A stretch of 64,000 nucleotides of DNA, taken from NCBI GenBank assembly GCA_950295325.1, contig OX485808.1, forward strand, positions 13,518,501 through 13,582,500, read 5' to 3'. Every line of letters begins with the position of its first letter. The stretch's first letter is position 1. The notes under the pieces were generated by a model, which was given only the letters and a program-made list of their open reading frames with translations, did no database searches and had not been told where the DNA came from. Source of the stretch: Polytrichum commune (taxonomy: Eukaryota; Streptophyta; Polytrichopsida; Polytrichales; Polytrichaceae). Below are positions 670-39,455 of the stretch, piece after piece. The translations under genes and the position numbers were made by a program.

Positions 670-683
670 ACTGCCGATGAAAC

Positions 684-2561: not shown

Positions 2562-2564
2562 TCC

Positions 2565-4844: not shown

Positions 4845-4895
4845 TAGCTAGTATGGCCGTCACCTTCAAAACACCTACAGCACTACCCTGGTTAT

Positions 4896-5832: not shown

Positions 5833-5943
5833 GTATGTCAGCTATCCTTCATTGAACTGTATACTATATTGACATGTTAGTAACATTTTGTAACAACAAC
5901 TGTATTTATGTAAAAACCAAATGCCGCCATGGCCCACATTGTG

Positions 5944-6306: not shown

Positions 6307-6399
6307 TAGTGTTGGCACTGTCGGGCATCATAGGAACTTGCCCCGATCAACAAGACTAGAGTCAATTCTATAACCATGTCATAGAGATTCACTCAACTA

Positions 6400-6930: not shown

Positions 6931-8769
6931 CGTCTCCTACAAGTGGCAGTACAACGGAGGACCAGCCTACAGCTTGCAGTAATGCATGAATCTGTTCCCA
7001 AATTTAGTCCACTTGAGAGCAAAAACTAAAGTTACCAAGAATCGGAATCCAGTCCTGGGGCTTTTTAAGCCTTTTGCCGTTGCGGAGGATTTGGAGACCA
7101 TTGGAGCAGGTGAGGAGGATCAAGCAAGCAATGAAAGAAACCCCCAAAGAGAATTAAAGGCAGGCAAGCAGGCAGGAAGGGAGGAAGGGAGGGAGGGAGG
7201 TGGGTTCCATGTGCTTTGATATTATTCCGAAGCAGCAACTACAGTCGGTAAGGATTCGGAATCTGTGCTGGTGGAGGTGAGACCTAGTAATCCTTCCACT
7301 CCTCCGTTACTGCAGTGAACTTGGCCCTTGATCTGAATGAAGAGAGGCAACTTGGATACTGAAGGCATAACATAAGCCGGTCCAACACACTTTGTGGCCC
7401 GACAATTCGTTAGTTTGTCAAAAGTCGGTTCATCCGACATAATAAAATATTTGACGAGAATATGATAACGTTTAGAGGATTATGAACACAATTCTGGGCT
7501 TGTATGAACCAATGTATCCAATCAATAGGTAGTAAGGTGTTCACACAATACATTCAGCTCCGTTGTGGGACTTGGCATATAATCCCTCCCTACTGGGTCC
7601 ACGATCCATATGGGATATGAGGAAAACACAGGACCTTTTGGGAGATGTGTAGAACAAATGTTACGACCTAACCTTCAGAATTGTTAGGTTACCATTTGCT
7701 TCGTTTGTTCAGAAGGTTATCGTTTCTGAACAAATGAAGCAAAAGAACGTAGAGTCACCCAACCTTTTGGTAGAAATGTGGCCAGAATTGAATAAGTTAC
7801 AATACCAAAATGAAAGCTTGAAGATAATTCGGGATATACTTGGGGGTTTGACCGGGCAAAAAGTGGATACCACGTGAGAACAACTATAGGGTGTTTTTTA
7901 TTCATTGGCAAGAAAAATTATAGAAACTTTGGATCTATCATAGCCTACTCAAAATACGAAACATGTGATTATATATATTTTAGCATAAGGGGAAAACCCC
8001 CACTTTAGGTTTGAGGTAGAAAGAAATTAGTATGACAAAAATAACAAAGGATTTTTTTAATTAAAATAGAATGAGTATATTCACATATAATACATGAAAA
8101 ATGGATGAAAATTGAGCAACTGGGTCATGATGTGTACACTCTTCTTTCACCAATATATAGCAACGTGGATATACGCCATGCCATATTAGAGTCTTAAGTT
8201 TGCCTTCGTATAGAACAAGTAAATCAAAATCTTGTAAGTAATTTAGCATCATTTAAAATATTCTAGGTTTTCTTTAATAATTACCTATAGGGTGAATATT
8301 TGGTGAAGTTTTTTCTTTTCTTTTCTTCCTACTTAAAGGGTTCCCTAAAATCCAAATGAGGAGGTAAATAGCCCTCATAAAAATACCCTTTGTACACAGT
8401 GACGTGGTTACATAACACAAGAGGGAGTGAACCCCCCCCCCCTTCCAAAGGGGATATATGACCCCATATGCATTTAGGGATTGAGGAAAAGGAGATATCA
8501 TGTACATATAGAAAGGTAGAAAGTCAACTATTCATACGGAAGACGTACAATTTCAGGTACTAATGAGTAGAACCTAGCCCCCCTAGTCTGTGAAAAAATA
8601 AATTGGACATGCTCGCTTTGTTGGTTGTGTCTACCATGGGAGATTGGGAAGTGGGGTCTCTAGAACATTGAAACAATTCAATGGTCAAATGTTGTATCTC
8701 TCAATGTGGGACCAGTATGTAGACAAATGCATGACATCCATATATAATATCTATACTCATATCAAAAGA

Positions 8770-9120
8770 CCTACCCAACTGAAACCTGATTGGTATACAA
8801 ATTGTAATACTAGTCAAACATTGGTACTACCATGTGGGTATCACAAGATGGGAGAATCTTTGCATACCAGAGTTATTGTTTACGTCAATACCATGATCGT
8901 AATATCATAAAGAAAGTAGGGTAATCATATCTAGGCATAAAGGTCTTTCTTGATGGTATAAAGATTGGAATGATATCAATATCAAAGATCTTTTCAAATA
9001 TCCGTACCCTATTTGTAATAAAAAATTCATATAAAATCCCAACTCTACATACTTGGGTGGTATAAGAAAACACCAGTACCAGTCAAATGTTGGTATAAAC
9101 CCCAAGGAAACCATGTTAGG
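8770..9120. repeat. Dispersed repeat, copy 1
   Basis: It shares a series of short blocks, in the same order, with 60670-60990: GTGGGTATCA, AATACTAGT, a CAAGRTGRGA-like block, TCTTTG, CGAGTTATT or its variant, GTCAATAC and later ACCAACATTGGTTTTAACCC-like sequence. It is non-coding, and its class is not recognised. Confidence 0.4.
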
Positions 9121-9433
9121 CACAAAGGTGGCCACTCCCCTTTGTAAAAGGCAAAGTTTGAATATCATAGAATATCATATGATGCATTTGAACATAAGAA
9201 CTTAATTAGAAGACTTGTGGTATGTCCATAAATTAAGTCACCAATGTAGTTTTTAAAGAATATTGAATACATAATCTGAAGGGAATGAAAATTTTTATAT
9301 CTTTTAAAAAAAAACATAAATCCGTAAGTGCTGAGAAAACTAGGCACTTGAAGTCATCAGAAATTATTATACTAAAAAACAGAACTAGGGTTTTATATTT
9401 TATAGGAGCCAAGTGCTTTTAGGAGAGGAGCAC

Positions 9434-16823: not shown

Positions 16824-19800
16824 TCATTCCCCCTCTTCATCTTCATCTTCAACTTCATTTCCATTTTCAAGATCGTTTTCCGCAGCTGCGATACGTGCCA
16901 AGTTGTCTTTGGCAAAATCTATATGTTTTTGCGGGATGGTCATTGTCTCTGATTTCGAACCTTTGCGTGGTTTCCAAGCACAAAGTATGGTATCTGTGTT
17001 TATCCAAACCGGTTCGTATGATGAGTCCATTGTCCATTTGAAACCTTTTTTGGTGTCCCACCCTAAATATGTCCGGAGCACATTTTGATCTTTGGTGCTT
17101 GGACGGCAATATTCCACCTCAATTTGGCGAAAATTTGGACTAGTTGGAACAAAGTTTGGTGATGACAATGCTTTCACCAACCAAATTGGCTTGGGATGCT
17201 CCTCATCCCCAGCACGTACGAGCAGCAAATAACCTTCGTGGCAATCAACCCCAACACGAAACGACGGCTCCGGTCGATTGCGAGCAGGGCCAACATAATG
17301 ATCGTCCGCAGCGAACTCTTCACGAACGTCCCCATTGTTGAACAACATGGCCTCAGATTCCACGACTGTCACTCGACTTTGTGGCCAAAACCCTTGTGTC
17401 AAACATGAATGTGTATCAACATCGGGTGCTATCAATGCCGTGCGAATGCGATCCCAATACGCAATCAATGGTTCGTGGGTATCCCTAACACGTCTTGTGA
17501 TGTCTTCCTCGCACAATTCTTTCCAATATTCAATGAATCCGGATATACCTTTGATGATTTCTGGCCCATTTCTCATGGGGCTGGGTGTACAAGGCTTCGG
17601 CTCACCATCAGGTAGCACACATTTGCCATCTTCGTTTTTGCGCCAAATGAGTATCCCTTCCTCCGGACCCCAATTCGGGGAAGTGCACAAAACTTTGAAT
17701 TGCATGGCGGGCAGACCATCGTCACGCATATAAAATCGGAATTGTTGAGCCTTGGTGTGGCCCACTAGTCGGTCAGACCCCTTAAGAATGAATGGTTTTA
17801 TAAACCGTTTGAAATCGGGCACTTCTTCAATCAAATGTGGAATGACTGGCACATTGTCCAAATCCATATATGATTTCATGAGAAGAGGAATTGTCGGAAA
17901 ATCCTCCTCGTGCAACTTCATACTCCAACGTCCAAATGAAGCGTCGATGTCATCGTGCGTGTGGCCAACCATCAAAAAAGACACAAACACTTCTTTGAAA
18001 ATGCCCTTGGCTACCAGCAATGACCAGAAACAAAACACGTATCGACATTTGTTATCTTTGGCACAATTGTCAAGTTGCACGCGTAGAGTTCGAGGCAAAG
18101 GTTTAGCAAGAACGGGTTGTTCAGGCGGTTCTTGAAGTGAAGATAGACAAACTTCCTTCCCCTCTAGCACAGCCTCATAAATCGGAGTTGTTCCACATCC
18201 AACAAAAAGAGCACGCGAGGATGATGTTGGCGGACTCTCAAGATCTCGTAGAAGTTTTGCAAAAGACCCTACGGTATGATTGGCGTCGCCTGGATAGAAA
18301 TCCAAGCCATAATGTGCATACTTGACGTCCACATGGCCATGTGCAATCATACCTGAATTAAGACATACAAATGAGAAGTACATTCCAATATCATATATAT
18401 GAAGGAAATATGATATTGCCGCAAGTAAGGAACAACCATGCACAGACGAGTTACGGATGCGCATCCGTAACTCTTAAAAATGAGTATGTGGGCACGCCAA
18501 AAAAATGAAAACCAACGAACCTGTGACAGATATTGGCAGCTTGAAATATCCATGTGTGGCCTTTATTTTCCGCGCATAACAAGGGCAAGCGGTCTTCACA
18601 TGGTCCATTTTGTCATGAATGATTGTCAACACCTCGTTCGGCCTCATTATCGATAAGGCGCGATTCTTGTAGTAGTCTTGACGGTGTGCCTCCTGGTTGT
18701 TGACATGCTCAATGTATCTCTGTTGATGTCTGGTGTGCGACTCGGTCCCTATTGGATGTGCGTCTCGAAGGCCTTTATATTTTTCACAAGTAGAACACCT
18801 AGCAAACTTATCCCCGGGTCTCTTCGTAATGTATTCAGCGAACTGTTGATTCTTGATCACACTCAATTTTGACAACGAAATCGGCCCACATCCAACATTT
18901 TCACCAACTTCATTAACATCCACGAGTATGTTCTTCCATTTTGTCCCTGTGGGTAAAACCATCTGAACAACCTTTTCCCCTGACGGCAAAGTGCGTGTCT
19001 TGTGTGGCATCGCATCCGCTAATGGCATAATGATGGTTGACAGAGTTGCAGCCGCTTGGAGTGTTGCCTCCCTGGGCTTCTTTGTACCTGAGTTGCCATG
19101 GAACCGAGAACGCCTTCCTTGCAGCGAGTAGTTCCGGAACCTATAAAAATCTGCCTTTGAAACGGCATGAATAATGTACCATGCCCGGCAACAAACTTCT
19201 ATATTTTCCAAGGTCACAACCTTACAACCTCCGGCATCCAAGTGCATGTTGCGATGTACTTCAAGTTTCTTGGCAGACCGCATACGAAAGTCGGCAAGCC
19301 ACATCTCTTGCCTCAAAGATTTGATTTTGTCACGGGGAAATAGTTGGCAGCACTTCTTCGCACAACAATCCTTTGTGGCTACGGACCTAATAGATGTGTC
19401 TCCCAATGTATGATCTCGACGACGCTGCGTGGGTTCACGAGGCACACGAACGGAATCATATTTACGACGACCTTGTCTGGGACGCATTGTGGCGAACAAA
19501 GACTGTTGCAGTTGCTCAAATCGGCGGGATTGATCCCACAAGCTCACACCATTGTGATGAACACTTCGCAAAGGCCATCGACGGAGAGAGAACCTCCAAC
19601 CAGGAGGCACTTCCGATGGAAGTAAGGAGTTCAATATGCACACCCCAACATCGTCCTCCCCGAGGGGTTTTGCATCAATACAATCCGTTGGATTCGAGTT
19701 CCTACAAACACCGTTGGCCACGGGAACGGCACATGCATTGAGTAGTACAACATCAAGATCAACCCACTGCTCCCGCGAATAACCCTCACATGGTGGTATG

Positions 19801-25742: not shown

Positions 25743-26478
25743 TTTACGGACGCGCGTCCGTAAACTTTGACGCACCAGGTGGGTGAAGCATGCAACATAT
25801 ATCCAGAACTTACGGACGCGCATCCGTAAGTTCTGGATATATTTAAAAAACAATATTATTACTAATGGACAGTATATTTTCCTAGTTTACGGACGCGCGT
25901 CCGTAAACTATTGACATCCAAGTAAACCCCACTCCTAGTTTACGGACGCGCGTCCGTAAACTAGTGACATCCGAGGAAACCCCATTCCTAGTTTACGGAC
26001 GCGCGTCCGTAAACTAGTGACATCCGAGTAAACCCCATTCCTAGTTTACGGACGCGCGTCCGTAAACTAGTGACATCCGAGTAAACCCCATTCCTAGTTT
26101 ACGGACGCGCGTCCGTAAACTAGTGACATCCGAGTAAACCCCATTCCTAGTTTACGGACGCGCGTCCGTAAACTAGTGACATCCAAGTAAACACCATTCC
26201 TAGTTTCCGGACGCACGTCCGTAAATTAGTGCTAACCCCGTAAACCCAACTACTAGTTTACGGACGTGCGTTCGTAAACTAAAACTTTCTTATTAAATCT
26301 TATCTTTGTTCATAGTTGAGATTCTCATCCCCAACTACCCGTTGATAGTTTACGGACGCGCGTCCGTAAACTACATGTGAAATTTCGTATTGACATATGC
26401 AAAATCATTTCGGATAGTTCATTCTGACACTATAATTCAAAACAACATGTGGAAAGTTTACGGACGCGCGTCCGTAAA
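25743..26478. repeat. Palindrome array upstream of the ParB-like gene
   Basis: Palindromes begin at 25743 and 25809. Eight tandem units of exactly 53 bases follow, starting at 25886, 25939, 25992, 26045, 26098, 26151, 26204 and 26257, and further copies lie at 26349 and 26457. Within the 53-base units the dyad extends to CTAGTTTACGG...CCGTAAACTAG, a perfect 30-base palindrome, separated by TGACATCCGAGTAAACCCCA-like spacers. The array ends 44 bases before the first recognised coding exon and probably lies in a 5' intron. Confidence 0.92.
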
Positions 26479-27966: not shown

Positions 27967-28096
27967 GCATTCAGCAGTGCGATTGTGACGAAGTTCTCAA
28001 GTATTGACATGAAGCAAAGCGGCATGAAGACAGTGCACGATCTGAAGGGCGAACTGAAGCTCATCACTTCGTCGGGTAGGACCTGGGCTATCTGGA
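27967..28096 (+). CDS. ParB-like gene, exon 2, left part before the retrotransposon
   Basis: It begins after the CTACTTGCAG acceptor in phase 0 with AFSSAIVTKFSS and reads ITSSGRTWAIW up to the insertion. The final TGGA is the target-site sequence duplicated by the retrotransposon. The exon resumes at 38037. Confidence 0.75.
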
Positions 28097-28527
28097 TGTC
28101 ACGTGAGGTGACATCGGGGGCTAAGTCACGTCAACTTAGGAGTAAATGGACTCCATTAGGAGTCCATGTGTGTTGGGATGAGTAACGGACTCCATTGGGA
28201 GTCCTAGTTAGTTGTTCATCCACTCCATGGATGAACTCCACATTGGATTGGGGTTGTATGGAGAGGAAGGCCTCTTGACTTGCCATTGTTGTCAAGTCAA
28301 GTCTTGTGAGTGTGTTTTGAGAGAGAGAGAGCTTGTTGTTGCTTTCTCATGGCTATGGTGTAGTAGATTATGAGTAAAGCCTTTGCATTCTTTCTCCACC
28401 ACTTGCACTCTTGGATTCTCCCTTCGTGGAGTGAGAGATAGCTTGACTCTTGTGTGTGAATTTTAGAGTTTCTTAAGCTTTGTAAGGAGACATTTTAGTT
28501 TCTTAAGCTTGGAGAGAGAAACCCTCA
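28097..28527 (+). repeat. 5' LTR (repeat A, copy 1)
   Basis: It runs from TGTCACGTGAGGTGAC to AGAAACCCTCA, with typical TG...CA ends. TGTATG at about 28255 could act as a TATA-like element about 29 bases before ATTGTTGTCAAGT (28285-28297). If transcription starts there, U3 is about 28097-28284 and R-U5 is 28285-28527. Confidence 0.85.
28285..28297 (+). promoter_or_regulatory. LTR sequence complementary to the primer-binding site
   Basis: ATTGTTGTCAAGT in the LTR is exactly complementary to ACTTGACAACAAT at 28529-28541. In Tf1-type elements the 5' end of the RNA folds back on a site just after the LTR and primes reverse transcription; this pair fits that mode. Confidence 0.6.
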
Positions 28528-28528
28528 T

Positions 28529-28541
28529 ACTTGACAACAAT
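28529..28541 (+). promoter_or_regulatory. Candidate self-priming primer-binding site
   Basis: ACTTGACAACAAT starts two bases after the LTR end, where a primer-binding site is expected. It does not begin with TGG and matches no tRNA 3' end I know (no initiator-Met pattern). Its 13-base complement lies in the LTR at 28285-28297. Confidence 0.6.
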
Positions 28542-29821
28542 TGTTCAAATTTTTCATTTTTGGTTGTATTTCTGAGCCAGAATGGCCCAGTAATGAGAGC
28601 AAATGAGTGATACAAGTGTTTGAAAGCTTAGTTTGTCATTTCTTGCAACCTTCAAGAAGATTTTGAGAGAAATCTTCCCATTTTTCTTTTGTTGTCTCTT
28701 TGTGTTTTCTTCAAGTGTTGATGGTTGAATCTTGAGATTCCATTTGGTCTCAAGATTCTCAAGTCACATCATTCTTGCTTGCAATTTGTAAAAGCAAAAG
28801 TTTAATTCTTTTAAAAATCTACAAACAAATACAAACCAAACTTCAAATCCGAATTTTTTTTTATATAATATTTTTTTTGAGCTCCGGAGCTCCACGGACA
28901 CTCTTGGAGCTCCTGGAGCTCCAATTCTGCAGCCGGGGCCGGAAAAATCCCGGGCGGCGGCAGCCGGGCCCCGCGGCGACGTGGCAGCGGGCCGGGGGCG
29001 GGCGGGCGACAGCCTGGCCGGATGGCGGGCGGCGCCAGCCTGGCCCCCCTCCCCTTTTCAAGGTACCCTTGCCCCCCCTTTGAGTTACTTAATTAATTAG
29101 TTTAGTTAAGATTAGTTAACTTAATTAGTTAATTAGGTTGGTTCATTAAGTTAGTTAATTAAATTAATTAGCTTAATTAATTAGGTTCTTAGTTTAAGTT
29201 AATTAAGTTAATACATTTAGGCTAATTAAGTTACTTAGCTTAAGTTCATTAAGTTAATTAATTAAGTTAAATTTTTTTAAATTTTTTTTAAAAAAAATAA
29301 ACCGGATTTTTTTTTTTTTTTTTTTTTTTTACTTTCACTTTCAAATTTGGCATTTCATTGTCACAAACTTTGAGGCTCAAATTTGGGGGCATACTAGCTC
29401 CGATTGAAGTGAAATTTGAGCCTATTTTGTGTGAAATTTGCCAAGGAATCCAATGGTGTAATTGGATTTTTGATTGGAAGTCAAAATCATTGCTGAAATT
29501 GTTAATTTCAACGCTGATTTTTGTTTTTGGGAGCAAATTAACTCCGATTGGAGTGAAATTTGAGCCTAATTTGTGTGAAATCTTCCTAGGAGTCCATTGG
29601 TGCACTTAGTTTGTTGATTGGAGTTCATAATCACCTTGGAAATGAGCCTTTTCAACGCTGATTTTTCATTTTAATTACCAATCTCAAACCTTTGCACAAT
29701 TTTGGAATTCTGGGGGCATAAACACTTGGCATTTGGCAAGGGATTGCCATTTAGATAGCCCGCAACAGGTGCAGGTTGCCGTTACCTTGTAGATATTTGC
29801 AGGTACTCAAGTGATTATTTT
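28542..29821 (+). other. Retrotransposon 5' untranslated leader
   Basis: No coding is seen. It contains a GC-rich block (about 28870-29080) with GAGCTCCGGAGCTCC palindromes, then TTAATTAGTTAATTAAG-type repeats (about 29085-29275), a T tract, and a tandem duplication of about 140 bases (about 29380-29525 and 29530-29665) sharing TGAAATTTGAGCCTA and TTCAACGCTGATTTTT. Confidence 0.6.
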
Positions 29822-32800
29822 ATGGTGCAAACTAGGAGCCGATATTATCGATCTCCATCACCAGATTATTTGGAAAACGTGCATACCACAAATCTTGAGC
29901 CAGAGGTAGATACCAACGAGGCTTTTGAGCCTATTTCGGCGTTGGACACTACTAATAGGCTTCGGATTTGGAGTGTCGGCACGTTCGACGACATGGAGGA
30001 CGATCGCCACAATTCAGTGCGTGATCGGTTTTCAGGTCGAGCTGGGGGCATTTCCTTGCCCAATTGGAAACTCCGGTTTCGTACCTGGATTAAGGAGAAA
30101 CGCCAAAGGTCTTCCAATTTCAATGATTGGTATGCCTTTGAACTTCTGCCTCAACATTTGGAGTATGAGGCACTCCAAACTTACGAACGATGGACAGAGG
30201 GTCATCAGCGACAACTTCGGGAGGTGGAGCAGTATTGGGAGGCCCGGGTTGAACTTATTTCAGCCCTTAAAGATGGGGCGATTGCCACCTTAGCTCCACC
30301 TACCTTAAAGGAGGAGGATCCACTGGAGGAGTCTGAGGACCAAGAACTGGCATTTGGGCCAATGGTGGCTGGCAGTAGCACGGCTACCCTTTCACGGATG
30401 GCACGTGCTACACAGGCAGCATTGACGGCTGTTGGTCCACCACCTCCATTTAATCCCCTTACAGAATTTGTCGCACATTTGGAAGTGGAGTATGGTGGGT
30501 TTCGGCGAGACCAGATGCAGCGCATCCAGGATTTCCGCCGAGAGAAGGATGATACTCCACGGACCATGTATACGCGACTCGCGCGATTTGCTGTGGAGTC
30601 GGGAGGTGTTTTTGCTGAGAGTCAGCTTGTTAAAATATTTTTGTCTAAGATTGACAAGCGGCTACTTGAGTTGGCATCACCTCGGATTATCCTCGACTAC
30701 GAGGGCCGAGCTACGCTCGCACAAGCGTTTGCCGTGGTTGAGAAATGTGATCGGGCTCTTTGCCAACATGATGCCACGGATATGGTATCTTGGATGACAG
30801 AGAGTCCGAAACCAAGAAGAATTGTCACAGCTACTAGCAGTTTAGCTGAGACTCAACCCGTCAAGGAGCAAAAGATTTTGCATTGTTGGGGTTGTGGAGA
30901 AGCTGGTCATTCGAAGAATGATCCCAATTGTCCTAAGAAGAAGAAAACTCAGCCTTTGGGAAAATTCAAACAAAAGATGGAACCAGTAAGGGCAGGGGAC
31001 AATTCTAAGAAGAGACAATTGAAATGTAGCCATTGTGGTGGCACTAATCACGATGTGGATCATTGTTTCCTACTTCATCCTGAGATGCGGCCTGCCAGTT
31101 ATGTCACTGGAAAGTCTCTAAGGGAGCAGAGTCTTGAGGCTAAGGTGGCAGAGCTTGAGCAAAAGCTCAAATCTTCTGCATCTTTTGCTCAAATTTCTGA
31201 GCCGCATGTGGGTGGTGGCACCTCGGGTTCGGACATGTATATGTTTGGAGCAGCTGGAGAGGTGGTGGCGGCGGCTTCTACTCGCTCACAAACATTGGCA
31301 GATGCGGTGGCTTCCACGAGTGGTGGTAGCAACGAGGTGCTACATCCTCGCCATGCCGGACCAGCTGATCAAATTGGTCAAGCACGTTTACCTCTTTCAT
31401 TTGGATTGGTAGACACCACTGTTGTTGGGGCTAAAAACCCTGTACCTTTGAGAGATGGGGATTCCATCTCGAAGGATGTTACGCAGGCATTGGCATATAA
31501 AATTCTCCATATGCCAATTTTCTCGGGTTCGGAGTTTATGGCTTCGGATTTCAAGCCTGCTGCAGTTTTTCATTTAGCTGGGAGAATGTTAGAAGGTAAG
31601 GCGGATTTGCCATCCCTTCAAGTATCCCAAGCTGTGGTTGACGTACCTGTGGCTGAGGAGGTGGAGGACTTAGCCAATTTGCGAGCGAGTCTTGCGGATG
31701 CGGCGATCATTGCTTTTGGTAAGCAAACTGATATTCCTCCAGCATCAATTTCAGCAGTGGATACGTCATTTTCGAATTATGCGTCAGGAGCGGCATATCT
31801 TGCAGACATTTCTGCAAGGCCTGCTCGCGAACGGCATAATTTGCAACCTGGAGTTGTACGGCTGATGAACGACAAATCTTTGTTTCTCGTTTCACGCACG
31901 GATATGCCCACTATCCGTGCTACACCACTGAAAGTTATGATGGATTCCGGTGCTCAACCGGTTATGATTGGCAAAGGACTCGCTGACAGTCTTGGATTGA
32001 CGCCAGCAAGCTTGGATCCTTGTCCATTCACTATTGTGACTTCAGTAGGGGGCACTGAACGTGCAACATGTTACACCAAGGCACCTCTACGTTTGATTTT
32101 TCATGTGGGGGCAGGGCCTACTTACACTCATTTGTCAATGAAGTGTGTTGTTACTAATGCTACCAACTATGATATACTTGTTGGTCAGCAAGCTCTTTAC
32201 CCACTTGGCTTTGGTTTGGATAATTGGACGGAAGAGGCATGGATTAGACCAGGATGGTCCACTGGAGATGGCAGGAAGGTATTTATTCCCGTCACATTTG
32301 CAGCCACTGCTATGACTATGGTTGCGGAGGCAATGTTTGGTTGCAGCGGTTTAGTTGCAGATTTGCCTTGTACTCCAGTTTTATTGGAGGAAACAATGGA
32401 CTACACTTGTAATGCGGCAGAACAACAATTTTTACCATCTTTTCAAAGTCCTGCTCGACATTTCAAGGATCCAACTCCACCATGGCGAACTCCTAAGGAG
32501 TTATCCGACCATTGTCGACACATTGTAGCGGATTTGGAGCTTGGAGAGGCACCCCCAACTTCATCCTCATTTTCTTTTGCTCAACCCATTCGTTGGCAAC
32601 CATCACCTGAAGGTATTGTCCTTGTGGAGATCTTTGGAGGCATTGGCACAGGTTTGGCGGCAGTGTTGGAAGCTGGAATTACAGTTCGGCAATATATTCA
32701 TGTGGACAATGGGTATGCAGCCAACAGAGCCGTCCGACATCACATCCAACAATTGTTGTTGAGATACCCCGCACAATTGTCAGCCTCTGCCATTCATGGA

Positions 32801-33919
32801 TGTTGTGGTCAACTTCCTCAAGATGTCACTATGATTAGTGATGAGGATTTGAGAAGGTTGGGCCACGTGGATTTGATTATTGTAGGATGGCCTTGTCAAG
32901 GCCATTCGCGGGCAGGAACTGGCCAAGGATTGGATGATCCTAGGTCTAGTTTGTTTGCGGATTTGATGCGATTGACGCAATGGTGGTTTACCCACCAATC
33001 AACTCCGCCAGGGTACATTTTCGAAAATGTACCATTATTGGGTGATACCCGGCACAAAGTGGTGAAGGATAGTGAGTACATTAACCAAAATCTGGGTACT
33101 CCAACATTTCTGGATGCTGCATCTTTGGGATCCTTTGCTCATCGGCCTCGTTGGTTTTGGACCAACTTGGTATCACCTCGGGTGCTTTCAGTGGCGATTG
33201 CCCTCATTCCCCGCCTTATGGATCGCAAGGTGGATGACATTTTAGATGATCATCGTGTTTCCTTGGCAGTTACCAAGGATGACACCTTGCCATTTGCATT
33301 AATTAACAAGGTGGGAATTCCGAGAGGTGCACTACCTACTTTTGTGACATATTCACAGTCTTTTGCATTTCGATCTCGTGGACCTGGCATGGTTTGGGAT
33401 TCAAAATCCCAAACTTATGAGGAGCCTACGGCAGATGAGCGGAAACGCGCCATGGGTTTTCTTACAGGTACCACAGCTGCTCACGGGCTTCAGGAAGGTC
33501 AGAGACGTTTCCTATTGGGGCAAACTATGGATCTTAATAGCATTGTGTGGATAATTGGAATTTGTCTTGCTGCTCAACAACGTATGGATGACCAATTGCT
33601 TACTCTGAGGGCAGAGAACAATGGTCAGGGGGCAATGGAGCCGCAATCCAAGGATCACATTGAGGTCAATGATACCGAGGGATTATTTCCTTTGAAACTT
33701 CATGTTGCGGAAGAGCTTCGAGCCCAACGTGTTTTTTCAGCTTTGGCCCAAGAGTTTGGGAAGTTGGAGGCCCATAAAATGTTTCCACTTCTATTTCTTG
33801 GTGATACTTCATATGTGGGTAGCTATTTAGCTACACAAACTGATTGTAGTGGAGAGGATACGCATTTGGATTCAAGTGCAGATGATGGGGGCAAAGGTGT
33901 TGCCCTCTCCACGGACTAG
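29822..33919 (+). CDS. Retrotransposon gag-protease-DNMT3-like polyprotein (ends at leaky UAG)
   Basis: 1,365 residues in three parts. (1) Gag: a capsid-like region around FVAHLEVEYGGFRRDQM (about 220-310), then two zinc knuckles, CWGCGEAGH near 353 and the canonical CSHCGGTNHDVDHC near 401. (2) Aspartic protease: DSGAQPVMIG near 706 and NYDILVGQQAL near 780. (3) C5-cytosine methyltransferase, about 930-1250: motif I EIFGGIGTGLA, motif IV VGWPCQGHS with the catalytic Cys near 1021, motif VI FENV near 1067, motif VIII HRPRWFW near 1105, and motif X-like RRFLLGQTM near 1229. The AHRPRWFWTN box and the short IFGGIGTGLA motif I resemble DNMT3 rather than DNMT1 or CMT. All expected catalytic residues are present. 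Inferred role: de novo methylation of the element's own DNA copies or of the target locus. The UAG at 33917 is in frame with pol. Confidence 0.93.
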   Translation: MVQTRSRYYRSPSPDYLENVHTTNLEPEVDTNEAFEPISALDTTNRLRIWSVGTFDDMEDDRHNSVRDRFSGRAGGISLPNWKLRFRTWIKEKRQRSSNFNDWYAFELLPQHLEYEALQTYERWTEGHQRQLREVEQYWEARVELISALKDGAIATLAPPTLKEEDPLEESEDQELAFGPMVAGSSTATLSRMARATQAALTAVGPPPPFNPLTEFVAHLEVEYGGFRRDQMQRIQDFRREKDDTPRTMYTRLARFAVESGGVFAESQLVKIFLSKIDKRLLELASPRIILDYEGRATLAQAFAVVEKCDRALCQHDATDMVSWMTESPKPRRIVTATSSLAETQPVKEQKILHCWGCGEAGHSKNDPNCPKKKKTQPLGKFKQKMEPVRAGDNSKKRQLKCSHCGGTNHDVDHCFLLHPEMRPASYVTGKSLREQSLEAKVAELEQKLKSSASFAQISEPHVGGGTSGSDMYMFGAAGEVVAAASTRSQTLADAVASTSGGSNEVLHPRHAGPADQIGQARLPLSFGLVDTTVVGAKNPVPLRDGDSISKDVTQALAYKILHMPIFSGSEFMASDFKPAAVFHLAGRMLEGKADLPSLQVSQAVVDVPVAEEVEDLANLRASLADAAIIAFGKQTDIPPASISAVDTSFSNYASGAAYLADISARPARERHNLQPGVVRLMNDKSLFLVSRTDMPTIRATPLKVMMDSGAQPVMIGKGLADSLGLTPASLDPCPFTIVTSVGGTERATCYTKAPLRLIFHVGAGPTYTHLSMKCVVTNATNYDILVGQQALYPLGFGLDNWTEEAWIRPGWSTGDGRKVFIPVTFAATAMTMVAEAMFGCSGLVADLPCTPVLLEETMDYTCNAAEQQFLPSFQSPARHFKDPTPPWRTPKELSDHCRHIVADLELGEAPPTSSSFSFAQPIRWQPSPEGIVLVEIFGGIGTGLAAVLEAGITVRQYIHVDNGYAANRAVRHHIQQLLLRYPAQLSASAIHGCCGQLPQDVTMISDEDLRRLGHVDLIIVGWPCQGHSRAGTGQGLDDPRSSLFADLMRLTQWWFTHQSTPPGYIFENVPLLGDTRHKVVKDSEYINQNLGTPTFLDAASLGSFAHRPRWFWTNLVSPRVLSVAIALIPRLMDRKVDDILDDHRVSLAVTKDDTLPFALINKVGIPRGALPTFVTYSQSFAFRSRGPGMVWDSKSQTYEEPTADERKRAMGFLTGTTAAHGLQEGQRRFLLGQTMDLNSIVWIIGICLAAQQRMDDQLLTLRAENNGQGAMEPQSKDHIEVNDTEGLFPLKLHVAEELRAQRVFSALAQEFGKLEAHKMFPLLFLGDTSYVGSYLATQTDCSGEDTHLDSSADDGGKGVALSTD

Positions 33920-33925
33920 CAATCA
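33917..33925 (+). promoter_or_regulatory. Stop-codon readthrough signal UAG-CAA-UCA
   Basis: The amber stop ending the gag-DNMT frame is followed by CAATCA, matching the UAG-CAR-YYA context known to permit several percent readthrough in plants. The pol frame continues in the same register with no other stop until 37063, so readthrough would make a 2,413-residue fusion. Confidence 0.75.
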
Positions 33926-36900
33926 CAGGCTGTGCTGGCACCAATTGGCAATCCTTCTATGAAGAAGGAAACCACGGAGTTTGACGATTGGCCAATTGAA
34001 GTGGGGCCAAAGCTTACTGGTGCCGAAGCACGAAAGGTACGGGCATTTATTCGCTCTTACCGTAATTGTTTTGCCTTTAGTCTTCATGATCTTGAAGGAT
34101 ATAAAGGTAAACCTGTTCGTATTCAACTCGAGGACAACCACCCTATTTTCAGACGGCCGTACAGACTTAGTACCTCTGAAAGGTTGGGTGTTCAAACTCG
34201 ATGTCAAGAGTTATTGGCAGCGGAATTGATTGAACTCTCCAATGGAGAGTATGCTTGTGCCACGGTTATGCCGTCAAAGAAGGATATCTTTGGCAACTGG
34301 ACGGAAAAACGGATGTGTGGTGATTATCGTCCAGTCAACCGCAAGACCAAGTCGGATCGATATCCAATGCCGATGCCGGAGGAGTTGTTTGATGCACTGG
34401 GATTTTCTAGAATCTTCAGCACTCTGGATTTGAGGTCTGGTTATCATCAATTACCTTTGTTGTTGGGTGATCGGGTGAAGACCGCATTTTGGGGAATTGA
34501 TAAAGATGGCAAGGATCAACTTTATCATTGGAAATTTCTGCCATTTGGTCTCAAGAATGCACCAGCTGAATTCCAGCGGGTGATGGACCAATTATTGGCT
34601 GGTTTGCCGTTTGCTAGATGTTACATTGATGATGTTATCATCTTTAGTAATAGTCCACAGGATCATGTGAGACATTTGCAAGCGGTATTTGAACGACTTC
34701 AACGGTGGGGACTCCGTTTACATCATGGTAAATGTAAGTTTTTCCATGATCAATTGCCCTATTTGGGCCACATGATTGTTCCTGGCGGTCTTGGTGTGCA
34801 ACAGGCGAAGGTGGACGCTTTGCACAAAATTCCCGCACCTAGTGATGTACCACGGCTTCGTGCATTTCTAGGATTGGCAAATTATTATAGGAGGTTTGTC
34901 AAAAACTTTAGTTTGATTGCCAAACCTCTTACCATTCTCACGGGGAAAGACCAACCATGGATTTGGAGTCGGGAACAACAACAGGCATTTGATACATTGA
35001 AGCAGAGGCTCGGTTCTGCGCCAGTGCTTCGACGCCCGGATGTGTCTAGAGCTTTTCAATTGCACACGGATTGGAGTGCAGTGGGATTGGGAGCGGTATT
35101 GACACAGAAAGATGAAGAGGGGAAGGAATATGTGGTGGCTTATGCATCTAGAAGTAATAATAGTGCTGAATCTAATTATTCTTCTTATGAAGGCGAGGCC
35201 TTGGCGGCCGTTTGGGCCATTGCACATTTTCGACCTTATTTGTATAGGCAGAAGTTTACTTTGGTGACTGATCATCAGCCTTTAAAATGGCTTATGGAAT
35301 CAGATAAGCTCACCGGAAAACTTGCTAGGTGGGCATTGTTACTTCAGGAATATGATTTTGAAGTTGTTCACCGAGCAGGAATTGCCAACTTGGATGCAGA
35401 CGGATTGTCTCGCAATCCAAGTCCTTCAGATGAGGATTTGACTGGAGCCAGGTGGCATGGAGATTGTGATCGTGAGGCAGTGCCGGGTTGGCATGCTGCC
35501 ACATATCTCACAATGATGTCGGGATTGGCTGCTGAAATCCTTGTGGAAGAGCAAGATGAGGAGGTTGATAAATCTCTCGTTGTTAGTGATGTGTGGGAAG
35601 ACCAGGCGGTCTTGCACAAACTTCAACAAGGGATATTTCCTCTTGGACTATCTTCTATGGAGCGAGATAGAGTTAGTCACCGGATAACAAGGTTTCGTTG
35701 GGCAAACGGCTTGTTATTTCGTGTGTGGCCGAACGGAACGAGGCGCATCGTTCCAAGGCCAGATCAAAGAGCTTCTTTGGTACGGCAAGTGCACGAGGAG
35801 CTTGGACATTTTGGAGTGCGAAGGACACACTCTATGTTGCGCAACCAATATTGGTGGACTGGTATGTACCAACAGGTTGCCACTTATGTTTCTCGGTGTG
35901 AAGTATGTGACCGGGTTAGGTCAAGTTTTAATACTTTATCACTTCAACTTCAACCTTTACCTATTATGGGCTTGGGATATCGTTGGTCTTTGGATTTTGC
36001 CGGACCACTTACTATCACTCCACGTGGCTCCAAGTATGTGCTTGTGATGGTGGAGCATTTTAGTAAGTGGATTGAACTCGTGGCTCTTCCCCAAAATTCC
36101 TCAGAATTGGCGGCTATGGCATTTCTTGATCGAGTTTTGGCACGGTTTGGAGCACCTGCAGAGGTGTTGACGGATCAAGGGAGAGAATTTCTTGGATCTT
36201 TCGAAACTTTGTGTACCAAGGCTTTGATTGATCATCGGACAACTTCCAGAGATCACCCTGAGGCAGATGGCTTAGCTGAACGAGTTGTTCAGACGGTTAA
36301 GCGCGGTTTGCGGAAGTATGGATTGCTTCATGGCAACCATCGCGATTGGGACTTGATGTTACCATGGATAGCAATGGGTTACCGTTTCAGCAGGCAAGCA
36401 TCTTTAGCATCCTATAGTCCTTACCAACTCTTGTATGGACGGGAACCAATTTTACCTAGCTCGGTGCGAGAGAAATTGGCTCCCGTGGTCAACTTGGATG
36501 ATCCAGATGTTTGGGCTCAATGTCTTCATGACCGAGCATCGTTCTTCCAAAAGGCCATGCCTATGGCTATGGAGAACTTAAATATTGCTCAACATCGTGA
36601 TACATTACGGTATGCCCGGATCCGCAGTGGAGCTTATCGACCTCAGGTTCGTAGATTTTCCAAGGGGGATTATGTTTACTTGCAACGGGAGGCGCCTACG
36701 ACATTGGATGTCAAGGCTGGGCGCACGATTTTGCGGGTAAAAGATGTCTTGCCAAGTGGTATATTATTGCTTGAAGGCAAGGATGGACGGGAATGTCGTG
36801 AGCATTCAAAGAATTGTGCTCCATGTCACCTTCCCATCGACGGCTCTGTGCATCCCGAGTTGGCGGTTGTACCACAGGGTTTGCCTTGTTATGTTTGTGG

Positions 36901-37063
36901 AGAGAAGACAGGAGCTGCAACAATGTTATTGTGCGACCAATGTCAACGTGGATGGCACATGGCATGTTTGACACCTCCCCTTTTGACTCTTCCTTCTGGC
37001 AATTGGGTTTGTCCTCGTTGTCGGAAAGCCTCTCATTCCGTGGCCGTTAATGGTCATGATTGA
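33920..37063 (+). CDS. Retrotransposon pol: RT, RNase H, integrase, C-terminal PHD finger
   Basis: It is translated by readthrough or from a downstream start; it has no ATG near its beginning apart from NPSMKKE. Counting from 33932: reverse transcriptase at about 60-300 with YIDD near 231; RNase H at about 370-490 with LHTDWS and VTDHQPLKW; integrase zinc domain HEELGHFG...CEVC (about 620-660). The integrase core has SLDFAGP near 687, DQGREF near 748 and GLAERV near 782, an intact DDE triad with the usual ~35 spacing. A GPY-like tail follows. At about 985-1033 there is a complete C4HC3 PHD finger (CYVC, CDQC, WHMAC, CPRC) at the position where chromoviruses carry a chromodomain. PHD fingers commonly read histone H3 tails, so it may direct integration or tether the complex; that is inference. 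Confidence 0.93.
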   Translation, partial: QSQAVLAPIGNPSMKKETTEFDDWPIEVGPKLTGAEARKVRAFIRSYRNCFAFSLHDLEGYKGKPVRIQLEDNHPIFRRPYRLSTSERLGVQTRCQELLAAELIELSNGEYACATVMPSKKDIFGNWTEKRMCGDYRPVNRKTKSDRYPMPMPEELFDALGFSRIFSTLDLRSGYHQLPLLLGDRVKTAFWGIDKDGKDQLYHWKFLPFGLKNAPAEFQRVMDQLLAGLPFARCYIDDVIIFSNSPQDHVRHLQAVFERLQRWGLRLHHGKCKFFHDQLPYLGHMIVPGGLGVQQAKVDALHKIPAPSDVPRLRAFLGLANYYRRFVKNFSLIAKPLTILTGKDQPWIWSREQQQAFDTLKQRLGSAPVLRRPDVSRAFQLHTDWSAVGLGAVLTQKDEEGKEYVVAYASRSNNSAESNYSSYEGEALAAVWAIAHFRPYLYRQKFTLVTDHQPLKWLMESDKLTGKLARWALLLQEYDFEVVHRAGIANLDADGLSRNPSPSDEDLTGARWHGDCDREAVPGWHAATYLTMMSGLAAEILVEEQDEEVDKSLVVSDVWEDQAVLHKLQQGIFPLGLSSMERDRVSHRITRFRWANGLLFRVWPNGTRRIVPRPDQRASLVRQVHEELGHFGVRRTHSMLRNQYWWTGMYQQVATYVSRCEVCDRVRSSFNTLSLQLQPLPIMGLGYRWSLDFAGPLTITPRGSKYVLVMVEHFSKWIELVALPQNSSELAAMAFLDRVLARFGAPAEVLTDQGREFLGSFETLCTKALIDHRTTSRDHPEADGLAERVVQTVKRGLRKYGLLHGNHRDWDLMLPWIAMGYRFSRQASLASYSPYQLLYGREPILPSSVREKLAPVVNLDDPDVWAQCLHDRASFFQKAMPMAMENLNIAQHRDTLRYARIRSGAYRPQVRRFSKGDYVYLQREAPTTLDVKAGRTILRVKDVLPSGILLLEGKDGRECREHSKNCAPCHLPIDGSVHPELAVVPQGLPCYVCGEKTGAATMLLCDQCQRGWHMACLTPPLLTLPSGNWVCPRCRKASHSVAVNGHD

Positions 37064-37378
37064 GGACTTTGTGGATGTTTACCACATGTTTTAGTGGTGA
37101 AGTTGTTATTTAGTTGGTTGGAAATTTTATGGGATTGAAAACCACATTGAAAGAGTTATCCAAGAATTCAACATTAATTGTTGAAGGCGATTAAGGATGG
37201 GGCTCACATTGCACCCAGCCTACAATTCTTGGATTACTTTGTCAATCACGAGTTTAATTCCTTCGATTACTACTACCTAATTAAATATGTATAGATGTAG
37301 CAACAACTTCATCATGTTCAACAACTCTATCGATGAGTGTGTTTGTTCCTAGCCGATTGGAGGGGCTCCTTATCTGCT
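37064..37378 (+). other. Retrotransposon 3' untranslated region
   Basis: Non-coding sequence between the pol stop and the polypurine tract; no ORF or repeat of note. Confidence 0.6.
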
Positions 37379-37388
37379 AGTGGGGGCA
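37379..37388 (+). promoter_or_regulatory. Candidate polypurine tract
   Basis: AGTGGGGGCA directly precedes repeat B copy 1, not repeat A. If this is the plus-strand primer, the functional LTR would start with B, and the inserted copy would be permuted relative to a normal LTR element. Confidence 0.5.
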
Positions 37389-37493
37389 CTTGAAGAGGTG
37401 GTTGTTAGCATTTTAGTTTGTTATTTTATTTTGCTATTGATGTTGACAACGACACTCGATCTGTTGTGTTTAACGATCTTAGTTTACACGACA
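37389..37493 (+). repeat. Repeat B, copy 1
   Basis: 105 bases from CTTGAAGAGGTGG to TTTACACGACA. It is repeated without visible change at 37928-38032. It is joined to repeat A by two bases (GC), making the small palindrome GACAGCTGTC at the junction. Confidence 0.9.
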
Positions 37494-37495
37494 GC

Positions 37496-37926
37496 TGTCA
37501 CGTGAGGTGACATCGGGGGCTAAGTCACGTCAACTTAGGAGTAAATGGACTCCATTAGGAGTCCATGTGTGTTGGGATGAGTAACGGACTCCATTGGGAG
37601 TCCTAGTTAGTTGTTCATCCACTCCATGGATGAACTCCACATTGGATTGGGGTTGTATGGAGAGGAAGGCCTCTTGACTTGCCATTGTTGTCAAGTCAAG
37701 TCTTGTGAGTGTGTTTTGAGAGAGAGAGAGCTTGTTGTTGCTTTCTCATGGCTATGGTGTAGTAGATTATGAGTAAAGCCTTTGCATTCTTTCTCCACCA
37801 CTTGCACTCTTGGATTCTCCCTTCGTGGAGTGAGAGATAGCTTGACTCTTGTGTGTGAATTTTAGAGTTTCTTAAGCTTTGTAAGGAGACATTTTAGTTT
37901 CTTAAGCTTGGAGAGAGAAACCCTCA
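37496..37926 (+). repeat. 3' LTR (repeat A, copy 2)
   Basis: It is the same 431 bases as 28097-28527 by eye. It is followed by one T and then repeat B copy 2. Confidence 0.9.
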
Positions 37927-37927
37927 T

Positions 37928-38032
37928 CTTGAAGAGGTGGTTGTTAGCATTTTAGTTTGTTATTTTATTTTGCTATTGATGTTGACAACGACACTCGATC
38001 TGTTGTGTTTAACGATCTTAGTTTACACGACA
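37928..38032 (+). repeat. Repeat B, copy 2, at the outer right end
   Basis: This is an exact-looking copy of 37389-37493. It ends CACGACA directly at the target duplication TGGA, so the element's right end is here and not at the end of repeat A. Confidence 0.9.
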
Positions 38033-38036
38033 TGGA

Positions 38037-38671
38037 TGCGCGTCTTCCATGCACACAGCAACGGAGAACTCATCAACCTTGAGACGGAGAAGAAGTACAA
38101 AGAGGACTTGAAGATTAAGGTGCCTCCAATCCTCAGAGAGTTCTTCCATCCCCTCCAAGGGTTGCTCGATGCCGAGCTTTACAAGGCAGCAGAACACCTT
38201 CTTAAGGAGACTCCGAGAAGGACAGCGCCGTATCCAAAAATCTTCCTCAAACGACCAAGGTTTATGAAGCCTTCAACGTACCATTTTAAGGAATGGTGCG
38301 AATACAGGAAGAAGAAGACGTTGGCTATGAGGGAGATAGGCAAATTGGTACCCGCCTACAACCTTACAGATGCAGATGGTGACATTGTGTGGGACAACTG
38401 GAGGGGATTGAAAATAGCATACCACATCAATGGCGTCTCAATGAAGGCATTGATGAGAGCAGCATCTCCGTTCTTGGCCCAGCGCTCAAGGAAGAACGAG
38501 AAGAAAGGTTCTATCGACGAAAGGGAGACAACTTTGTATAAACACTTCCTCGATAGAAAGAAGAATGCCAAATTCGAGGGTGTCGCAAGGTTTTGCGCCG
38601 TGACATCACAATTGAAGTTCGGCAAGTGGGACACCCATGCTTCGCGGGCCACTGTGAGAGATGACCCCCGG
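38037..38671 (+). CDS. ParB-like gene, exon 2, middle part between the two insertions
   Basis: It continues the exon after removal of the retrotransposon: VFHAHSNGELINLETEKKY, then FFHPLQGLLDAELYKAAEHL and FKEWCEYRKKKTLAMREIGK. The stretch is Lys-rich with no recognised domain. Its last eight bases (38664-38671, ACCCCCGG) are the hAT target duplication; the exon resumes at 54631. Confidence 0.75.
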
Positions 38672-38760
38672 CAGGGTTGTCTATTGTGTCGTGACGGAGG
38701 GTAATCCCGACATAATGTCGTGCCGTCACGACACGTATCCGTCACGACATTATGCCGGAT
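38672..38760 (+). repeat. hAT left terminal and subterminal repeats
   Basis: CAGGGTTGTCTATTGTG is followed by GTCGTGACGGAGGG and several CCGTCACGAC motifs in both orientations, the usual arrangement of hAT transposase binding sites. Confidence 0.85.
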
Positions 38761-38899: not shown

Positions 38900-39436
38900 T
38901 AGAGCCCGTCCGCCCCCCCGTCCGCCTCCGTTCCCAACCCCCGTTCGCCCCCGTTCCCCCCCGTCCGCTCCCGTTCACAATCCCCGTTCGCCACCGTTCC
39001 CCCCCGTCCGCTCCCGTTCCCAACCCCGTCCACTCCCCCCTCTCCCGTCCGCCCCCCCCCCCCCCCGTCCGCTCCCCCGTCCGCCCCCCCCCCCCCCTCC
39101 CCCGTCCGCTCCACCCCCCTCCGTCCGCCCCCCCCCCCCCCCGTCCGTCCGCTCCCCCGTCCGCCCCCCCCCCCCTCCCCCGTCCGCTCCACCCCCCTCC
39201 GTCCGCCCCACCCCCGTCCGCTCCCCCCCCCCCTCCGTCCGCTTCCCCGTCCGCCCCCCCGTCCGCTCCCCCCCGTCCGTCCGCTCCCCCGTCCGCCCCC
39301 CCGTCCGCTCCCCCCCTCTGTCCGCTTCCCCGTCCGCTCCCCCCCGTCCGTCCGCTCCCTCGTCCGGGCCCCCCCCCCCCCCCCCTCCGTCCGCTCCCCG
39401 TCCGGTCCCCCCCCCCTTCCGTCCGCTCCCCAGTCC
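38900..39436. repeat. GTCCGC-rich C-tract array, left
   Basis: A degenerate tandem array of CCCCCGTCCGCTCCC-like units with long C runs. It ends just before the TATA box of the transposase gene (39448). Long open frames over it, on both strands, are compositional artefacts. Confidence 0.85.
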
Positions 39437-39447
39437 GATTCGAATAC

Positions 39448-39455
39448 TATAAATT
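39448..39455 (+). promoter_or_regulatory. TATA box of the hAT transposase gene
   Basis: TATAAATT lies 12 bases after the left C-rich array and about 235 bases before the transposase ATG (39685). A probable leader intron ends at TTTATTTGCAG (39670). Confidence 0.5.

Follow-up and report, generated by a model that had tools for sequence, protein, structure and literature searches.

We present here a Ty3/Gypsy-type retrotransposon from Polytrichum commune that encodes a DNMT3-like cytosine-5 methyltransferase and carries a PHD finger on its integrase. It lies within the window, the 64,000-nucleotide stretch of contig OX485808.1 that was analyzed. We place at about 0.6 the probability that it represents a family with its own DNMT3 and integrase PHD, methylating at the Gag level and steering integration through the PHD finger. 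DNA methylation is ordinarily directed at transposons. In this family, comparison of two diverged elements shows purifying selection on both the DNMT3 domain and the histone-reader-type finger, and because the pairing is kept and old, a parasite's reason for methylating DNA becomes directly testable. The combination of split-repeat ends with a DDE integrase opens an unusual replication route to test.

The inserted element occupies positions 28097 to 38032; it and all stranded features given below are on the forward strand. The first-pass annotation had proposed this span, and it is exact, as judged by the reconstructed empty site: a target-site duplication, TGGA, is present on the left (28093 to 28096) and right (38033 to 38036), and rejoining the flanks with a single TGGA restores a reading frame open for 63 codons upstream and 222 downstream. 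The interrupted exon-like frame consists of a left piece (27967 to 28096), preceded by an AG acceptor at 27966 that 43 of the 63 upstream codons follow, and a right piece (38037 to 38704). The 4-bp duplication is the short target-site duplication expected of a DDE integrase. The element is probably a recent, intact-looking insertion. No second copy was found within the window using blastn with three element pieces against the window flanks, and Rfam returned no matches at gathering scores.

The ends are split direct repeats in the order A-int-B-A-B, which rules out a plain matching pair of long terminal repeats (LTRs). Repeat A (432 nt, beginning TGTCACG) is present as A1 (28097 to 28528) and A2 (37496 to 37927), and repeat B (105 nt, ending ACGACA) as B1 (37389 to 37493) and B2 (37928 to 38032, the right end of the element); the copies of each are 100% identical. 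B1 and A2 are joined through gc in the palindrome GACAGCTGTC (37490 to 37499). Directly 5′ of B1 is a purine-rich run, AGTGGGGGCA (37379 to 37388), which resembles a polypurine tract and may serve as one. Repeats and stop codon were compared with the DNA of a single relative, L053, which is not a flanked, integrated copy and which was recovered along with four Streptomyces loci in a scan of genome contigs. L053 has the same 10 bases at its corresponding junction and a similar purine-rich run. Its 127-nt end overlap is suggestive of circular DNA, which we do not claim, as split repeats alone close an assembly graph. The split-repeat architecture is a criterion of DIRS/PAT elements and is present here; these elements are also defined by a tyrosine recombinase without target duplication, in place of which an rve integrase and TGGA were found. 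No initiator-Met primer-binding site, the one primer type searched for, occurs in 28090 to 29900 or in L053 at 7000 to 8700. A scan of viral contigs for the B-A junction pattern found none.

Open reading frame 1 (ORF1; 29822 to 33919, 1,365 amino acids) encodes Gag, protease, and the methyltransferase. It contains two CCHC-type zinc knuckles (30884 to 31066), at 30884 to 30931, with a wider last spacing, and at 31025 to 31066, and a retropepsin-like protease with DSG (31913 to 32194; Pfam matches below gathering scores). ORF2 (33920 to 37063) matches the Pfam domains RVT_1, RNaseH, H2C2, rve, and PHD. Its reverse transcriptase (RT; 34301 to 34777, with YIDD within 34619 to 34639) is followed by RNase H (35039 to 35353), an integrase H2C2 finger and DDE core (35759 to 36259), a beta-rich integrase C-terminal region (36608 to 36880), and the PHD finger (36887 to 37021). 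The order protease-RT-RNase H-integrase with H2C2 and rve, in which the protease match is below the Pfam cutoff, is that of Ty3/Gypsy elements and bears out the original Gypsy assignment. ORF2, whose first start-type codon is at 33932, is in frame with ORF1, and the two are separated by a single amber codon in a TMV-type leaky context, UAG-CAA-UCA (33917 to 33925). This matches CAR-YYA, given as the readthrough consensus in excerpts of PMC2194720, and TAG CAA TCA is present in both the window element and L053. With a leaky UAG between the frames, the methyltransferase would be made at the Gag level. The earlier placement of methyltransferase and PHD finger in the same polyprotein therefore holds for the UAG readthrough product only; otherwise, the domains are in two ORFs.

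The methyltransferase domain (32597 to 33631) matches PF00145 (E value, 3.3e-11). The boxes first reported, I (32624), IV (PCQ, 32885), VI (ENV, 33017), VIII (AHR.R, 33113), and X-like (33500), are all present, as is an IX-like box (33335), and their unrearranged order excludes a DRM enzyme. The box spacing had been likened to that of DNMT3, which is fair but not exact (I-IV, 87 versus 70 in DNMT3A; IV-VI, 44 versus 47; VI-VIII, 38 versus 32). One alignment of the family comprised 16 hand-picked sequences, and three degenerate rows were kept out of one profile. Profile search ranked DNMT3A first (85 bits), above DRM-type enzymes (48 bits) and HhaI (38 bits); a bacterial-type control query placed HhaI first. 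No DNMT1 was among the 54 profile-matched chains (E ≤ 0.001). The structure model (pLDDT, 90.5; pTM, 0.90) was compared with the PDB using Foldseek, and the best 50 of 181 matches (E ≤ 0.001) were all of the DNMT3 family, although some chains may be DNMT3L; TM scores by target were 0.75 to 0.82 for the listed DNMT3-family chains shorter than 300 residues. In an alignment of relatives, 15/62 blast matches were excluded as partial. The 55 rows of the methyltransferase tree, selected on coverage or manually, include no DNMT1, CMT, or host plant DNMT3; the sole DNMT3 row, a long-branched DNMT3A with part of its sequence unseen, falls on the side of the element family, apart from 10 bacterial or phage enzymes (SH-aLRT, 99). 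Profile, predicted fold, and tree thus agree with the DNMT3 assignment, the separation from bacterial enzymes being seen in the tree and placement against DNMT1 and CMT being judged by profile only.

Between the window element and L053, the methyltransferase is under purifying selection (pN, 0.19; pS, 0.78), as is the PHD finger (pN, 0.15; pS, 0.80); pN is higher in two linkers, at 0.37 to 0.45. With dS saturated and one diverged relative, selection was judged by pN against pS and not as a ratio. CpG depletion, considered as a scar of element methylation, was not specific to the element and was rejected as such a mark.

The PHD finger is, as first described, a complete C4HC3 finger at the chromodomain position of the integrase (PF00628; E value, 2.4e-10), and Pfam found no chromodomain in the element at E ≤ 1. 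The integrase/PHD alignment comprised 18 hand-picked sequences, and the structure model of this region was weak overall (pLDDT, 72; pTM, 0.41). Among the best 60 of 107 PDB matches, the top ones were CHD4, PHF12, KMT2D/C, KDM5, ATXR5, WSTF, and DPF3, and the next listed were BAZ2, AIRE, and UHRF1. The solved structures nearest this finger are mostly histone H3 readers. Two residues ahead of the ligand His, K4me3 readers have Trp; this position is Gly in 110/116 PHD fingers and Trp in none of the 116. From its sequence, the finger is predicted to be a C4HC3 type without an aromatic K4me3 cage, as in readers of unmodified H3K4. Between Cys 2 and Cys 3, the loop of this finger holds one acidic residue; 17/116 fingers have none there.

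A search with a query that included the PHD finger, and hence biased the PHD rate upward, gave 163 matches, of which 120 were listed. The finger proved not to be missing from these relatives, being present in 115/120 by pattern and in the other five by Pfam. Methyltransferase and PHD-integrase occur in one chain in 40 of the 120 proteins, and the predicted pairing is not unique to this element. Loss of methyltransferase motifs, named at the outset as a possible objection, affects a few relatives: the catalytic Cys is kept in 18/19 and 32/40, the latter being the PHD set, which also keeps the ENV Glu in 34/40 and the motif VIII Arg in 35/40. Because the motif IV Pro is replaced by Glu in 21/40 and the aligned Cys is missing in 8/40 (seven gaps, some in fragments that start past the box, and one Leu), predicted catalysis may not be universal across the family. 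A degenerate methyltransferase is kept in seven relatives (P0044, P0045, P0054, P0061, P0126, P0133, and P0136), and the PC motif is visibly missing from the alignment in P0044, P0054, and P0136. The both-domain chains of Volvox, Tetrabaena, and Marchantia (P0044, P0045, and P0025) have degenerate or broken methyltransferases; intact pairs occur in other relatives. Marchantia P0025 was considered as a separate PHD gene, which was rejected; two methyltransferase fragments accompany its PHD finger, and we read it as a probable decayed copy. Together, the intact homologues and the decayed ones, the latter from volvocine algae and Marchantia, show the pairing to be old.

In the pol tree (40 rows by coverage or by hand, family members only, without reference clades), the methyltransferase lies upstream of RT or after RNase H, and these positions are split over two clades, in both of which the PHD finger is conserved. 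P0020, which is 93% identical to the window element, and P0021, whose contig is as long as that of P0010, are labelled there as having the methyltransferase in ORF1, with ORF1 unseen. Two scans of viral contigs with pieces of the element ORFs found no relatives. A profile scan of these contigs gave 52 loci, 25 to 53% identical across portions of the domain, and we read these as likely phage or bacterial C5 enzymes; five served as outgroups.

Under the favored reading, translation would yield mostly Gag-protease-methyltransferase, so that the methyltransferase would be packaged with Gag, and UAG readthrough would add less of the complete chain, which includes RT, integrase, and PHD finger. The packaged enzyme would methylate the newly made double-stranded cDNA ahead of its integration. 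This cDNA, probably by way of an intermediate with a B-A junction, would then be inserted by the DDE integrase, which would cut at the TGTC/GACA ends. The ligand of the PHD finger would be the histone H3 tail, with unmethylated K4 more likely than K4me3, and the finger would steer or hold the complex on non-promoter chromatin. The complete scheme, a green-lineage Gypsy in which a Gag-dosed DNMT3 premarks cDNA, a PHD finger reading unmethylated H3K4 picks the site, and a DIRS-like B-A intermediate is used with a DDE integrase, is offered as a speculation that we think unlikely to hold in every part; the decayed methyltransferases in the both-domain chains of Volvox, Tetrabaena, and Marchantia weigh against it. 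If true, each new copy would arrive premarked and in matching chromatin.

Each part of this reading has alternatives. The PHD finger may be a structural or dimerizing appendage of the integrase that does not bind histones, which would suit the lone acid in its Cys2-Cys3 loop and the lack of any in 17/116 fingers; its conservation over both pol clades, the selection on it relative to L053, and the H3-reader roles of most of its nearest solved relatives (best 60 of 107) make this rather improbable. Similarly, the methyltransferase may be mainly a Gag-level protein that binds nucleic acid or methylates RNA, with its boxes kept for binding and not for marking DNA. Its location upstream of the leaky stop implies Gag-like dosage, the degenerate copies and the Glu in motif IV are compatible with such a role, and an RNA role was raised by de Mendoza 2018 for LINE-type methyltransferase elements (PMC5890265, in excerpts). 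We consider this unlikely against the retention of the catalytic Cys, ENV Glu, and motif VIII Arg in most of the PHD-integrase set and the predicted DNMT3 fold.

It is very improbable that the A-B-A-B repeats are an accident of this copy, namely, a 5′ LTR deletion plus a tandem end, and not the replicative form. The arrangement was seen in one integrated copy, but insertion of the whole A-B-A-B unit is consistent with the ends, the restored frame, and the 4-bp duplication, L053 has the same GACA-gc-TGTC junction, and DIRS-like repeats are reported for a Klebsormidium nitens relative (PMC5890265, in excerpts). Less can be said against the methyltransferase having been captured twice from related hosts, before RT and after RNase H, instead of once with a later move. 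This is a substantial minority possibility: the two positions sit in two pol clades and the tree held no plant or algal host DNMT3, yet both position types cluster together and apart from DNMT3A, which alone represents DNMT3 in that tree (SH-aLRT, 94).

Vertebrate DNMT3A/B share the catalytic fold with the element; when the folds are aligned, about 21% of residues are identical. They combine a methyltransferase with a PHD-like H3 reader, ADD; in the element, unlike in these enzymes, reader and writer are far apart, and the reader is on the integrase. For SymbioDIRS-Dnmt3, a target duplication is not expected. That retroelement resembles ours in its A-coding-B-A-B repeats and DNMT3 but uses a tyrosine recombinase in place of a DDE integrase, according to excerpts of PMC5890265. 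Chromoviruses and the chromodomain/Tudor Gypsy elements of Ectocarpus likewise end their integrase or polyprotein in a histone reader; theirs is a chromodomain or Tudor domain, "PHD" does not occur in PMC12477816, and its excerpted text contains no cytosine-5 methyltransferase. Ginger1-9_HM shares a PHD finger and a Gypsy-like integrase with the element but is a DNA transposon with Ulp1, and "methyltransferase" does not occur in PMC2836005.

KnitGypsy-Dnmt3 of K. nitens is a Gypsy element with a DNMT3 and DIRS-like repeats (PMC5890265, in excerpts) and has these, with the Gypsy polyprotein, in common with the element described here. A PHD finger, which our element has, is not mentioned in the excerpted text, figures aside. 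The KnitGypsy-Dnmt3 methyltransferase gave no methylation in yeast, a result its authors call inconclusive, as DNMT3B also failed (PMC5890265). The K. nitens protein P0019 (KFL_009030040) is homologous to the element in methyltransferase and pol by match search and both trees; its methyltransferase, upstream of RT, shares 43% identity across 259 residues, and we infer that it is a KnitGypsy-Dnmt3 copy. P0019 is one chain, whereas the window element has two ORFs with a leaky stop, and it ends before the PHD site; P0029, to which it is sister in the pol tree, has a PHD finger. A Gypsy element with DNMT3 and DIRS-like repeats is, on the published excerpts, already known in KnitGypsy-Dnmt3, and the Polytrichum element is a variant of it.

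The Gypsy-type retroelement at 28097-38032 encodes a methyltransferase and a PHD finger on either side of one in-frame stop. ORF1 (29822-33919; 1365 aa) contains two CCHC-type knuckles, a retropepsin-like protease (DSG present, Pfam score under the cut-off), and a C5-methyltransferase. ORF2 (33932-37063, open from 33920) contains RT, RNase H, an H2C2 and DDE integrase, and, at its extreme C-terminal end, a C4HC3 PHD finger. TGGA stands both at the end of the left flank and at the start of the right flank. Fusing the flanks with a single TGGA gives a frame that stays open over 63 codons upstream of the join and 222 codons downstream, as would be expected had the unit inserted in its present form into an exon; the proper exon start would be after the AG at 27966. 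The downstream piece of this interrupted ORF matched no Pfam family at E <= 0.01, and a long open hAT transposase ORF (PF04937, PF05699; 39808-42882, + strand) lies beyond it. The window also holds a tandem array with a 53-bp period (25826-26334), a very C-rich, imperfect tandem tract of CCGTCCG units (38902-39450), and a 546-aa DUF7869 ORF (16824-18464, - strand) adjoining an unassigned 485-aa ORF. Searching the window's flanks turned up no second copy of the element.

DNA was compared with L053 (CADCWO010000201.1, positions 1-9285), a diverged relative's retroelement contig deposited within a cyanobacterial MAG and taken as misbinned because of its eukaryotic retroelement content. Its ends overlap by 127 nt, which could arise either from a circle or from the way split repeats assemble. 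The ends of the window element differ from a simple LTR pair and follow the block order A-int-B-A-B, with two identical copies each of block A (432 nt; 28097-28528 and 37496-37927) and block B (105 nt; 37389-37493 and 37928-38032). The B1/A2 junction is the 10-base palindrome GACA-gc-TGTC, which occurs once in the window and is identical in L053. A purine-rich run lies directly 5′ of B1, and a similar run lies at the equivalent place in L053. By standard LTR logic, plus-strand priming at this run would make the LTR B-gc-A, and the integrated unit could derive from a precursor carrying this repeat twice, one copy being cut internally at the palindrome. No initiator-Met primer site was found in 28090-29900 of the window or 7000-8700 of L053. 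The A-int-B-A-B order is the one given for DIRS-type elements in a passage of de Mendoza et al. (PMC5890265).

ORF1 and ORF2 share one frame and are divided by TAG CAA TCA, which is identical in L053 despite near-saturated synonymous sites (pS 0.62-0.81). A passage of the Tca2 paper (PMC2194720) describes TMV-type readthrough as directed by CAR-YYA 3′ of the stop, and CAA-UCA fits this context. None of the 13 ORF1 relatives available as proteins (P0001-P0013) has an RT in the same chain; P0016 and P0019 (Klebsormidium nitens KFL_009030040) are each one single chain. From this layout we infer that the methyltransferase would be made at Gag dosage and RT-integrase-PHD at readthrough dosage.

The first-pass annotation had called the methyltransferase DNMT3-like, and profile, fold, and tree agree. 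A profile built from 16 members of the family (METHYLTRANSFERASE) put DNMT3A top at 85 bits, followed by DNMT3C and DNMT3B, with lower matches to 4onj (48 bits; database title "DNA methyltransferase", which we take to be tobacco DRM), DRM2 (40), HhaI (38), and DNMT2 (25). A DNMT1/CMT placement was checked by profile only, and none of the 54 chains matched at E <= 0.001 is a DNMT1. The control, bacterial-type enzyme P0245, put HhaI top. The AlphaFold2 model (pLDDT 90.5, pTM 0.90) retrieved DNMT3-family entries in 50/50 of the Foldseek matches listed (of 181, E <= 0.001). A 55-row tree, composed of the family, DNMT3A, and 10 bacterial/phage enzymes, set DNMT3A and the family apart from the bacterial/phage rows (SH-aLRT 99); the family without DNMT3A received 94. 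The DNMT3A row, the only DNMT3 outside the family, has a long branch and lacks one sequence stretch.

A beta-rich C-terminal part of the integrase precedes the PHD finger, which takes the position that a chromodomain has in chromoviruses, as had been proposed. The integrase/PHD model is weak overall (pLDDT 72), with PHD blocks averaging 81-89. Among the best 60 of 107 solved relatives by profile, CHD4, PHF12, KMT2D/C, KDM5, ATXR5, WSTF, and DPF3 came first, and BAZ2, AIRE, and UHRF1 next. The PHDs of KDM5, ATXR5, BAZ2, AIRE, and UHRF1 read H3 unmethylated at K4; K4me3 readers are marked by a Trp two residues before the ligand His, where family members have Gly in 110/116 and Trp in 0/116. P0103, P0043, and many other relatives extend about 300-400 residues beyond the PHD, and scans of two of them gave no Pfam domain in this extension.

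With the methyltransferase as query, 19 proteins were retrieved: P0001-P0013, P0016, four from Marchantia polymorpha, and one from K. nitens. The PHD-region search returned 163, and the 120 listed include Marchantia, Volvox, Tetrabaena, and Haematococcus. Relatives retain the finger, with the C4HC3 pattern in 115/120 and a PHD by Pfam listing in the other five (one scan-confirmed). A methyltransferase lies in the same chain in 40/120; it is degenerate or broken in P0045 (Volvox reticuliferus), P0044 (Tetrabaena), and P0025 (Marchantia), and P0051, P0063, P0088, P0093, P0124, and the transcriptome entry P0083 join an intact PCQ box to a PHD. The gene model P0025 (Mp_7g09570) combines a PHD with two methyltransferase fragments and has no RT in Pfam; it is read as a decayed copy or, possibly, a domesticated gene. 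A third search added methyltransferases from Closterium and Marchantia paleacea. The closest kin with species names are streptophyte elements, and this, together with the AG acceptor of the interrupted ORF, would make a charophyte or bryophyte host likely.

Among relatives, the catalytic Cys is present in 18/19 of the methyltransferase-search set (one gap), 32/40 of the PHD-region set (7 gaps, 1 Leu), and 74/101 of the third (25 gaps, 1 Tyr, 1 Ser), whose 107 proteins include six under the profile threshold. Glu replaces the motif IV Pro in 1/19, 21/40, and 29/101, respectively. P0054, P0044, P0045, P0126, P0136, P0061, and P0133 retain a degenerate methyltransferase, the PC motif is missing from the alignment in P0044, P0054, and P0136, and such clusters can be large (58 member sequences for P0054, 42 for P0126). 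Between the window and L053, identity is 69% for the methyltransferase (pN 0.19, pS 0.78) and 78% for the PHD (pN 0.15, pS 0.80), and pN is 0.45 in the protease-methyltransferase linker, 0.37 in the ORF1 tail, and 0.06 in RT-RNaseH. Judged on this single sequence pair, both domains are evidently constrained, though more loosely than RT and integrase.

Forty pol sequences fell into two clades. In clade I (window, L053, P0016, P0019, P0061, P0133, and P0020 and P0021, whose position is assumed), the methyltransferase lies before RT or in ORF1; in the second (16 rows), it lies after RNase H and before the integrase, and one change of position is needed among these 24 rows. In the other 16/40 no methyltransferase is visible: ORF1 may be out of view in the 12 that belong to clade I, and the 4 of the second clade lack a methyltransferase between RT and integrase. 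P0061 and P0133, members of clade I by pol, group on very long branches with the other degenerate copies when the tree is built from the methyltransferase, which counts against full pol/methyltransferase congruence.

CpG depletion was considered as an element-specific methylation scar and rejected, because the element, though depleted, is no more so than the hAT transposon. The element has a CpG observed/expected of 0.65, against 0.70 and 0.80 for its two flanks and 0.82 for L053. Synonymous codon shuffles gave z of -5.8 (ORF1) and -2.9 (ORF2), -5.4 and -3.1 in L053, and, in five control ORFs, -5.1 (hAT), -4.4 (kinase ORF), -1.0, -1.2, and -1.5.

Among the papers listed, drawn from literature other than subscription papers and some preprints, no title or abstract opening describes one retrotransposon that carries the two domains together. 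Within that scope, the pairing and how widely it occurs look unreported, and so do both architectures, the ECQ variants, and the leaky stop. The available portion of a 2025 paper repeats streptophyte and dinoflagellate reports and leaves chlorophyte elements unmentioned. The main text of de Mendoza et al. (2018, PMC5890265) contains neither "PHD" nor "chromodomain"; its relevant passages describe the Gypsy-DNMT3 combination with DIRS-like repeats in K. nitens as an independent acquisition in that lineage. That element, KnitGypsy-Dnmt3, has DIRS-like repeats but Gypsy domains according to a figure legend there, and in both respects it is like the window element.
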